From a virus, in the IMG/VR virus record IMGVR_UViG_3300043783_000054, positions 1 to 35,005 of that record: a stretch of DNA of 35,005 bases; one strand, given 5' to 3'. The notes under the pieces are model-generated. The model ran no database searches and was not told where the DNA came from. It saw nothing but the letters and a program-made list of their open reading frames with translations. The position numbers and the translations under genes were made by a program. Shown piece by piece: positions 1,099 through 3,063 of the stretch. The stretch's first letter is position 1, and each line of letters begins with the position of its first letter.

Positions 1099-2141
1099 TG
1101 AAGCTGACCGCCGCTCCGGTTGTGCGCCAGCCGATGGATGTGATAGGCGCCCCTGGTAAAACCGACTTCACCCGTATCTTTATCGCGTCCGAACTCAATC
1201 GTGACGAGTACCGTACGACGCTTCGTCATGAACAGGCGCATGTGTGGGCGGGGCATAACCGTCGGCGCCCGCATAACGCTCGCTCCAGGTTGTGGGACAT
1301 TGCGTGTGAAATGGAAATCGCACGGACGATTTATGATAGCCGCGATCTGGATATCATCGCTGCGCCGCGCTCACGCCTCGCAGGGGGGTATCTTCCTGAT
1401 TCTCTCGACGGCTTGCCGCCAGATGCTTTGCTAGCCGAAGTGATCTACGAATGGTTGCTGGAGCAACCTGATAATGAAGTCCCTCTCCAGAAGTGTTGCG
1501 TGTGTTCTTGCGTTGACGATGCGGAAAACGAACAAGATGACTGCGCAGCACCGGAAGCGATACGCGATCAGCTCGATGCCGATGAAGCGGCACACGAATC
1601 TCAGATCGCGGCGGCATGTGCGTATGATCGCCTGAAAAACCGTGCGCCGTCGCTGACGGAAGCGGTAGACGCCGCCCTTCGTGTACGTATTGAACGCGAA
1701 AAGTCTTATCGCCGGCCGTCAAGGCGTTGCGCTGGAGATATCATTTCGCACGGCGCGATTTCAACGCCGAGGCCGCCGCTTGTCGAGATTTTCGTTGACC
1801 GCAGCGGCTCTTTTACACCCGAGAAAACTGCTGCTGCGGAACGGCAATTGGGCTTACTTCTGTCACGTTACGGCGCCACAATCAGATCTGACGTATGGTT
1901 TTTCGGGAATGGAAAGTTGACCCCTACAGACCCCGGTGGCGGCGGTGACACGCCTTATCCGCTCATAGCGCAGCACATAATCCGCTCAGCGCCCAAGCTG
2001 GCTATCGTTATTACTGACAATGATCCTGTGGGGCCTCTGGACGCCGTTGATCGCCGTACGATAGTCCTTTGTGTGCCTATCGGATGTCATAACACCACTT
2101 TGGCAAAAGCGATAGGCGGCCGCGACGTGGTGACGCGATGA
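1098..2141 (+). CDS. VWA-like protein with N-terminal HExxH motif (DUF2201-type MoxR partner)
   Basis: A 347-aa partner of the MoxR ATPase. The N-terminal half has a HEQAH motif at residues 44-48 with a further His at 53, followed by an aspartate/glutamate-rich helix, which resembles a zinc metallopeptidase-like domain of the DUF2201_N type. A Cys cluster (CCVCSC) lies at 133-138. The C-terminal half is VWA-like: VEIFVDRSGSF carries a DxSxS MIDAS motif at D234/S236/S238, and a later strand ends in VITDND. The last codons (VVTR then stop) read GGTGACGCGATGA and overlap the start of the first Gly-X repeat gene, supplying its ribosome site. Peptidase activity is inferred; the HExxH could be structural. 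Confidence 0.82.
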   Translation: MKLTAAPVVRQPMDVIGAPGKTDFTRIFIASELNRDEYRTTLRHEQAHVWAGHNRRRPHNARSRLWDIACEMEIARTIYDSRDLDIIAAPRSRLAGGYLPDSLDGLPPDALLAEVIYEWLLEQPDNEVPLQKCCVCSCVDDAENEQDDCAAPEAIRDQLDADEAAHESQIAAACAYDRLKNRAPSLTEAVDAALRVRIEREKSYRRPSRRCAGDIISHGAISTPRPPLVEIFVDRSGSFTPEKTAAAERQLGLLLSRYGATIRSDVWFFGNGKLTPTDPGGGGDTPYPLIAQHIIRSAPKLAIVITDNDPVGPLDAVDRRTIVLCVPIGCHNTTLAKAIGGRDVVTR

Positions 2142-2395
2142 AGTATCCGAATGGCTACGGCAACGGCTACAGCTACGGCTACGGCTACGGCGACGGCTAC
2201 GGCGACGGCTACAGCTACGGCTACGGCAACGGCGACGGCGACGGCGAGGGCTACGGCTACGGCGAGGGCGACGGCTACGGCGACGGCTACAGCAACGGCT
2301 ACGGCAACGGCGACGGCGACGGCGACGGCGACGGCGACGGCTACGGCAACGGCTGCGGCAACGGCCAATACCCTTACCGACTGGTGACGCGATGA
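2138..2395 (+). CDS. Gly-X dipeptide-repeat protein, unit A (85 aa)
   Basis: Low-complexity protein made almost wholly of Gly-X dipeptides, X being Tyr, Asn, Asp, Ser or Glu. It is framed by a conserved head (MKYPNGYGNGY) and tail (GQYPYRLVTR). The Gly-Tyr frame is chosen because only it has an ATG with a ribosome site: GGTGA, 4 bases before the ATG, inside the last codons of the VWA gene. It also shares its head and tail with three downstream copies. Other frames read Ala-Thr or Ala-Val and lack consistent starts. The composition resembles Gly/Tyr-rich disordered proteins. Function unknown. Confidence 0.75.
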   Translation: MKYPNGYGNGYSYGYGYGDGYGDGYSYGYGNGDGDGEGYGYGEGDGYGDGYSNGYGNGDGDGDGDGDGYGNGCGNGQYPYRLVTR

Positions 2396-2541
2396 AGTAC
2401 CCGAATGGCAACGGCAACGGCAACGGCTACGGCTACAGCAACGGCGACGGCAACGGCGACGGCAACGGCAACGGCAACGGCAACGGCAACGGCTACGGCA
2501 ACGGCTACGGCCACTACCCTCGCCAACTGGTGACGCGATGA
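2392..2541 (+). CDS. Gly-X dipeptide-repeat protein, unit B (49 aa)
   Basis: Second and shortest copy. The head is MKYPNGNGNGN and the tail is GHYPRQLVTR, the most diverged of the set. It is Asn-rich rather than Tyr-rich. Its ATG overlaps the stop of unit A (ATGA), and its ribosome site is the GGTGA within the LVTR codons of unit A. Gly-X codons are nearly all GGC followed by AAC, TAC, GAC or AGC. Confidence 0.7.
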   Translation: MKYPNGNGNGNGYGYSNGDGNGDGNGNGNGNGNGYGNGYGHYPRQLVTR

Positions 2542-2777
2542 AGTATCCGAATGGCTACGGCAACGGCTACATCTACGGCTACAGCTACGGCTACGGCGAC
2601 GGCGACGGCTACGGCAACGGCAACGGCAACGGCGACGGCTACGGCTACGGCGACGGCTACAGCAACGGCTACGGCAACGGCAACGGCTACGGCGACGGCG
2701 ACGGCTACGGCAACGGCTGCGGCAACGGCAACGGCAACGGCAACGGCCAATACCCTTACCGACTGGTGACGCGATGA
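2538..2777 (+). CDS. Gly-X dipeptide-repeat protein, unit C (79 aa)
   Basis: Third copy, with head MKYPNGYGNGY and tail GQYPYRLVTR identical to unit A. The interior is a different ordering of Gly-Tyr, Gly-Asn and Gly-Asp steps plus one Gly-Ile. It is coupled to unit B through ATGA and the same embedded GGTGA ribosome site. Identical ends with a rearranged interior suggest duplication of the whole gene followed by slippage inside the repeat. Confidence 0.73.
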   Translation: MKYPNGYGNGYIYGYSYGYGDGDGYGNGNGNGDGYGYGDGYSNGYGNGNGYGDGDGYGNGCGNGNGNGNGQYPYRLVTR

Positions 2778-3037
2778 AGTATCCGAAAGGCTACGGCAAC
2801 GGCAACGGCTACGGCTACGGCTACGGCAACGGCTACGGCAACGGCTACGGCAACGGCTACGGCAACGGCTACGGCAACGGCAACGGCTACGGCTACGGCT
2901 ACGGCTACGGCTACGGCTACGGTGACGGTGACGGTGACGGCTACGGCTACGGCTACGGCTACGGCTACGGCTACGGTGACGGTGACGGTGACGGCTGCGG
3001 CAACGGCCAATACCCTTACCGACTGGTGACGCGATGA
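2774..3037 (+). CDS. Gly-X dipeptide-repeat protein, unit D (87 aa)
   Basis: Fourth copy, head MKYPKGYGNGN and tail GQYPYRLVTR. The interior contains a run of five alternating Gly-Tyr-Gly-Asn steps and then two perfect 54-bp blocks, each six Gly-Tyr and three Gly-Asp (2885-2938 and 2939-2992). The Gly-Asp steps there use GGT instead of the GGC used elsewhere, so this block expanded recently. It is coupled to unit C by ATGA, and its own LVTR codons lead into a 9-codon reading frame. Confidence 0.73.
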   Translation: MKYPKGYGNGNGYGYGYGNGYGNGYGNGYGNGYGNGNGYGYGYGYGYGYGDGDGDGYGYGYGYGYGYGDGDGDGCGNGQYPYRLVTR

Positions 3038-3063
3038 AATATCTTAAAGGAAATCCGATATGA
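3034..3063 (+). CDS. Nine-codon remnant of the Gly-X gene head (MKYLKGNPI)
   Basis: After the LVTR codons of unit D the same junction GGTGACGCGATGAA recurs and starts a frame reading MKYLKGNPI, which stops at TGA. The head matches MKYPKG of the repeat genes with Pro changed to Leu, but no repeat follows. Its TGA overlaps the ATG of the next gene (ATGA), and its codons contain AAAGGA, which serves that gene as ribosome site. It is either a truncated fifth copy or a coupling mini-frame. Whether the peptide is made is unknown. Confidence 0.5.
   Translation: MKYLKGNPI

Follow-up and report, generated by a model that had tools for sequence, protein, structure and literature searches.

The stretch of DNA analysed here (the window; 35,005 bases, a complete IMG/VR virus record) holds four consecutive genes whose products consist almost entirely of glycine alternating with a variable residue, (Gly-X)n, where X is Tyr, Asn or Asp and, in other contigs, also Ser, with the Shine-Dalgarno sequence of the next unit lying in the last codons of each. 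Our best explanation, held with about even confidence, is that the locus represents tandem, translationally coupled and hypervariable poly(Gly-X) genes within a phage early-region module that includes a recurrent member of the DUF6948 family. This grading blends two parts: the genetic architecture, which on the sequence evidence is very probably as described, and the functional part, in which the Gly-X product might serve an LSm-like protein as low-complexity partner, a reading that we put forward tentatively. Comparative sequence analysis demonstrates that Gly-X is the coding frame, and it shows the coupled arrangement of the junctions, the linkage (and, in one case, fusion) to DUF6948 and hypervariability by whole hexamers.

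A preliminary description of this DNA had picked out the array but missed the recurrent DUF6948 partner, the spread of these genes through phages and their hypervariability. Its statement that no described family shows this layout holds, within searchable sources, for the Gly-X proteins, but not for the mechanism of the junction, which is probably that of ordinary termination-reinitiation. Searches of the open literature (with subscription papers outside the search) returned nothing relevant on Gly-X or Gly-Tyr phage proteins, on low-complexity condensates or on DUF6948, for which no description of function was found. Judged against the libraries and open literature searched, what is new would thus be the Gly-X family and its association with DUF6948, that is, the module rather than the junction.

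The Gly-X array, its junctions and its relatives

The gene order in the window, on the plus strand throughout, is DUF6948-like, MoxR, VWA and four Gly-X genes. The diverged DUF6948-like gene (23..298; 91 aa) precedes a MoxR-like AAA ATPase gene (313..1098; Pfam AAA_5 at 7.7e-10, PHROG 1297), which occupies the same position in relatives, and a gene (1098..2141) whose product has an HExxH-like motif (HEQAH) and resembles VWA in its C-terminal half; the structure model of this protein was too poor for use (mean pLDDT 62). The ORF list and junction analysis then place GX1 at 2138..2395 (85 aa, MKYPN-(GX)n-YPYRLVTR), GX2 at 2392..2541 (49 aa, tail YPRQLVTR), GX3 at 2538..2777 (79 aa) and GX4 at 2774..3037 (87 aa, head MKYPK), followed by a nine-codon stub of a fifth unit at 3034..3063 (MKYLKGNPI and stop). 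Within this stub, AAAGGA serves the gene at 3060, the ATG of which is overlapped by the stop codon of the stub. Searches of the window's Gly-X proteins against Pfam, NCBIfam, PHROGs and PADLOC gave no match above cut-off and only compositional ones below it (TrAA12, ser_rich_anae_1). Elsewhere in the window, an 11/23-nt tandem repeat (CTTGCTGACTT) runs from the end of the primase gene onward (6611-6669).

At every array junction, GGTGA ends 4 nt before the ATG: at 2129..2133 inside the VWA gene for GX1, at 2383..2387 in the GX1 tail for GX2, at 2529..2533 in the GX2 tail for GX3, at 2765..2769 in the GX3 tail for GX4 and at 3025..3029 in the GX4 tail for the stub. This pentamer is able to pair with UCACC of the 16S 3′ end. 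In all five cases the stop codon overlaps the next start as ATGA (4 nt). Exactly five copies of the 19-mer TGGTGACGCGATGAARTAY are present in the window, one at the VWA/GX1 junction and one at each of the next four, and 100 dinucleotide shuffles produced none, confirming the earlier account of four Gly-X genes and a nine-codon start that share an identical junction. Downstream, the same ATGA overlap joins the stub to the gene at 3060, that gene to 3326 and 3326 to 3676, so the overlap is a local habit of the operon and not special to the repeat genes; the MoxR and VWA genes meet as TAATG. Judged by this layout, the array junction is probably an ordinary ATGA termination-reinitiation site of a known kind. 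Gene pairs with an ATGA overlap and a Shine-Dalgarno sequence in the upstream gene are usually coupled, and removal of the intragenic Shine-Dalgarno often, but not always, reduces reinitiation (Huber et al., 2019, 2023; the effects of intragenic Shine-Dalgarno sequences were measured in PMC6728339 and those of short overlaps in PMC10666635).

A search with the VWA protein returned eight viral contigs together with two prophages, one in Dyella sp. SG609 that is identical to one of the viral contigs and one in Luteibacter sp. Sphag1AF that is apparently the same as another. In almost all of these relatives, Gly-X units directly follow the VWA gene, with heads of the form M[KIN]YP[NKD]G and tails of the form YPYx[LM]VTR; L009 has only a possible head remnant and no full unit. 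The search of relatives for head, tail and copy number that had been proposed for this locus thus recovered both motifs (the head as M[KIN]YP) and a varying number of copies, with the junction retained and Gly-X as the coding frame. The suggestion that the VWA gene seeds the chain, by ending in VVTR with the same DNA, fared less well: VVTR is indeed its end, but the DNA is the same only from TGGTGA onward (VWA codons GTGGTGACGCGATGA, which supply the GX1 start signal), and in relatives the protein ends in DVASS, DVAQA, KDVA or DVKA. As its C-terminus is unconserved past ‘..DV’, and as one array in L005 does not follow VWA at all, seeding of the chain by the VWA gene is not a general feature.

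Several relatives show local peculiarities. A second Gly-X array in L005 (4904-5421) follows an unrelated small gene instead of VWA, and AGA replaces CGA at its junction. In L011 (900-1281) a Gly-X gene is split by ~250 nt of unrelated open coding sequence, and its tail has diverged to RYPYDLMMVLR, still with GGTG before ATGA. Two virus records, G003 and G007, start and finish inside the Gly-X array; assemblies therefore break in the repeat, and metagenome-derived copy numbers are uncertain. Searches of phages with the window region and the VWA protein (blastn and tblastn) gave no match, blastn searches of phages and plasmids with the junction gave chance matches only, and a pattern search of 234 Dyella-family genomes found nothing beyond the two known prophages. 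Matches to the tail/head pattern in viral contigs L016, L022-L024, L027, L029 and L032-L034 were rejected as chance.

The conserved tail had been proposed to be kept for its RNA function. When tail codons were compared at one internal junction per lineage (n = 7), GTG-ACG-CGA was unchanged in all seven, while the Y, P and Y codons before it and the Y and P codons after it varied synonymously. In the window phage, 35% of Val codons are GTG, 48% of Thr codons are ACG and 6% of Arg codons are CGA. If independence is assumed, the probability of finding GTG-ACG seven times over is about 4e-6, a figure to be taken as a guide only, because the seven lineages share ancestry. Some terminal units have non-canonical ends (YPYSLTTKSAQP in Dyella, a longer unrelated tail in G003, LVTRENL in G007, LVTRP in L017), and two of these lack the V; where the terminal end is canonical (in the window, L005 and L008), an MKY start comes next. 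The constancy of the three codons, together with these terminal differences, suggests that the cassette carries its own start signal in the last ~13 nt, with YPY probably conserved as protein. An RNA function would accordingly apply to those ~13 nt and not to the whole tail, whereas the idea that each cassette bears its own start gains support from the terminal units that start no further unit and have lost or extended LVTR. This comparison assumes independent evolution of the seven lineages, and homogenisation within arrays could also have kept the junction.

LVTR might instead be a protein signal, for example one by which the neighbouring MoxR/VWA-metallopeptidase pair processes or binds the product, with the Shine-Dalgarno sequence incidental. 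The conservation of YPYx[LM]VTR as protein, with YPY changing synonymously, would fit this, as would the HEQAH-motif gene adjoining the array and the MoxR-like genes near Gly-X genes in L051, L111, L136 and L145 (in three cases accompanied or replaced by a vWA/metallopeptidase-like gene). We nevertheless regard it as unlikely, given the total lack of synonymous change in GTG-ACG-CGA over seven lineages, the two terminal units without the V and the presence of Shine-Dalgarno sequences in the unrelated tails of unrelated Gly-X families (RRVE, VVEE, TRRR, EEEI). These families emerged from a degenerate scan for seven consecutive GGY-DAY words, which returned at least 159 Gly-X genes in at least 123 contigs, several of them standing in tandem arrays that arose independently and have unrelated heads and tails. 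The Shine-Dalgarno of the next unit lies inside the tail codons in L066 (RRVE, AGGAGG), in the five units of L073 (VVEE, AGGAG) and in L067 and L091 (RRR, AGGAG/AGGAGG); in the arrays of L049 and L051, start signals are intergenic or none was recognised. Because unrelated tails also hold such sequences, Gly-X tails resemble start signals that are translated, each in a different frame, and the notion of the tail as start signal appears to extend to other Gly-X arrays and to be less special to the window.

The DUF6948 partner and its predicted fold

Clustering of neighbouring genes yielded one dominant family, immediately upstream of the Gly-X gene in 62 of the family's 65 contigs, the canonical members of which belong to Pfam PF22253, DUF6948 (73-109 bits). 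With an HMM, a DUF6948-like gene was found directly upstream on the same strand in 76 of 123 listed contigs, many of the others being cut by the contig end; the DUF6948-type and Gly-X genes overlap each other in 50 of 62 cases, and in L063 (4912-5619) the two are fused in frame as a single ORF. PHROG 18306 matches both a DUF6948 and a Gly-X protein (positions 151-230 and 61-137).

Matches to DUF6948 are rare in named phage records (15 and 119 of 50,697, with 115 of the 119 from one Rheinheimera group), and in all nine records checked a Gly-X ORF adjoins the DUF6948 gene: Rheinheimera Barba1A (gp018/gp017), Pectobacterium Sabo (CDS0034/35), Dickeya Setonix, Vibrio IKEMa6-1, Iodobacter PhiPLPE, Chlorobiaceae CV-1-33, ct8d5349 and two faecal contigs with a short Gly-X tract joined in fusion to a further domain. 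As Sabo and Setonix are close relatives, the nine amount to about eight lineages. The Gly-X gene is unannotated in the published genome of PhiPLPE (L168, 1173-1409) and annotated in another frame (MAMAMAL...) in CV-1-33 (L167, 2764-3021). Fusion of the Gly-X tract to a C-terminal domain, with the pattern K..NG..VY.VDG.PTII..V.GN.A.G.IL..DLT..PCYIV, was seen in L181 (1749-2282), L182 (1767-2336), L102, L106, L127 and L130; no Pfam family was found for this domain in the L127 protein scanned.

The window's own gene at 23-298 matched an HMM of the upstream neighbours (hmmsearch, E = 3.7e-4) and, in a profile-profile comparison, the DUF6948-type neighbours (hhalign, probability 88%, E 3.2e-6 over 63 columns); a multiple alignment was also used. 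Searched against Pfam, it had no match above the gathering cut-off. We take it to be a diverged, remote relative of DUF6948, which resembles PF22253 at profile level as the partner family of Gly-X genes and differs from canonical members both in this divergence and in that the MoxR and VWA genes separate it from the array.

The fold of DUF6948 was predicted with AlphaFold2 from 30 aligned DUF6948-type sequences, with the member from L057 as target, giving a model with a pLDDT of 88.6. Foldseek searches with this model returned Sm/LSm proteins in nearly all of the 50 PDB matches listed (3by7, archaeal SmAP, Lsm1-7, snRNP cores), with a target TM of up to 0.71 and a best E-value of 1.4e-3, none of those listed reaching ≤0.001; against BFVD, DUF6948 proteins were returned. 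Small barrels resemble one another, and a search of the PDB with the DUF6948 sequence gave no match and no solved LSm. We regard an Sm/LSm-like fold as likely, but unproven, for the modelled member.

Variation of the Gly-X tract and its coding frame

Among cultivated Rheinheimera Barba phages, the flanks of the Gly-X gene (1,000 nt upstream and 800 nt downstream) show 0-4 differences, while the gene itself measures 210, 216, 240 or 252 nt; a single hexamer has been gained at each of two sites, and phages 31A and 19A have a wholly different order of X residues. L031 and L036 have 5,726 nt in common with one mismatch, which is an X codon. Among the at least 159 genes, X is Y in 1936, D in 1195, N in 858 and S in 585 of 4899 dipeptides, so that these four residues make up 93%, a value that describes the family rather than tests it, since the genes were selected for richness in Y/D/N/S. 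From these comparisons, the composition of X, and not its order, seems to be under selection.

Neutral slippage, in which hexamer repeats at the ends of early operons would expand in frame without function, would account for the unconserved X order, the hexamer-wise expansion and the reduction of several relatives to stub-like head remnants (the last unit of L008, possibly L009). It is nonetheless improbable in view of the same Y/D/N/S restriction in at least 123 contigs and nine named-phage records, the adjacency to DUF6948 (with fusion in one) and the retention of diverse words although wobble bases are uniform.

That uniformity also bears on the reading frame. Wobble bases are mostly constant within a contig and differ between contigs (GGC-NAC, GGC-NAT, GGT-NAT, GGT-NAC), differences that preserve Gly-X and destroy the Ala-Thr and Ala-Val frames, and the first base of the X codon is variable across the at least 159 genes and 123 contigs. 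We had to weigh whether the array might be kept for another frame (Ala-Thr on the plus strand, Ala-Val on the minus) or as a non-coding DNA repeat with GG every 6 nt, as the variable position is synonymous for Ala-Thr within one array and open ORFs exist in that frame, one such being annotated in phage CV-1-33. The variable base is C in none of the window's 106 X codons, although GCC makes up 23% of Ala codons in the phage (p about 7e-13); T wobbles in L008 and L049 would give Ala-Met or Val-Met and leave Gly-X intact, as does GGA in one unit of L026, where GGA-based and GGC-based units share an array; and start, tail and stop all fit Gly-X. On this codon evidence, both other readings are very improbable and were rejected, and the Gly-X frame is the coding one.

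Small tandem ORFs in which a conserved head and tail flank a variable Gly-rich core would also suit precursors of RiPPs, modified by tailoring enzymes with the head as leader; this is scarcely credible, as the radical SAM maturase family PF04055 was absent from the six phages searched, no RiPP enzyme was seen adjoining the array and the recurrent partner, DUF6948, is not an enzyme. Writing of the X codons by a diversity-generating retroelement, although X codons vary from AAC-like words and the tract is hypervariable in near-identical phages, is likewise very improbable, since reverse transcriptase (PF00078) was absent from the six phages of the clade searched, cultivated isolates gain and lose whole hexamers and His (CAC) is nearly absent.

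The proposed module and its known counterparts

In the model that we favour, of coupled Gly-X genes in a module with DUF6948, ribosomes ending one unit would reinitiate at the ATGA overlap, aided by GGTGA in the last codons, so that a duplicated cassette would bring its own start and dosage would rise with copy number. Such a design, with the start signal inside the C-terminal tail, would permit gene amplification without new regulatory DNA. If X composition matters rather than order, the product may work as a low-complexity polymer, with Tyr as stickers and Gly as spacers. Given the Sm/LSm-like small barrel predicted for DUF6948, the Gly-X chain could be a partner, encoded in trans and in one case fused, of an LSm-like and possibly RNA-binding ring during early infection; roles in condensates or with RNA are suggested by analogy.

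Gly-X polymer genes occur in trans, fused or, as in the window, amplified as reinitiation-coupled cassettes. More speculatively still, many phages may possess a two-part, possibly ribonucleoprotein module, in which LSm-like DUF6948 and a hypervariable, sticker-and-spacer Gly-(Tyr/Asn/Asp/Ser) polymer would organise RNA or replication early, sometimes with a MoxR/VWA remodeller. If so, a domain of unknown function would be tied to widespread phage proteins that annotation pipelines have missed or mis-framed, phages would have an equivalent of those LSm proteins that act with low-complexity partners, and the 115 near-identical Barba genomes would offer a natural system in which a low-complexity protein changes while its surroundings stay constant.

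Sm/LSm proteins with Gly-rich or low-complexity tails include SmD and Lsm4. DUF6948 and Gly-X resemble these in combining a predicted Sm/LSm-like barrel with a Gly-rich low-complexity chain, but the chain is nearly always a separate gene and shows strict Gly-X alternation without RGG; the fold match itself is below formal significance and RNA binding is putative. Other counterparts are Gly-X dipeptide proteins such as silk fibroin, and the [G/S]Y[G/S] domains of FUS; like the phage proteins, they have Gly in strict alternation with small or aromatic residues, and Tyr stickers; the phage proteins differ in that X is Y/N/D/S, with many Asp, in their length of 40-110 aa and in having no homology to either. 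At the level of translation, the array shares with the systems of Huber et al. the 4-nt ATGA overlap and the Shine-Dalgarno sequence in the upstream coding end, and departs from those gene pairs in that every tandem copy of the cassette bears the same junction, giving up to five consecutive starts.
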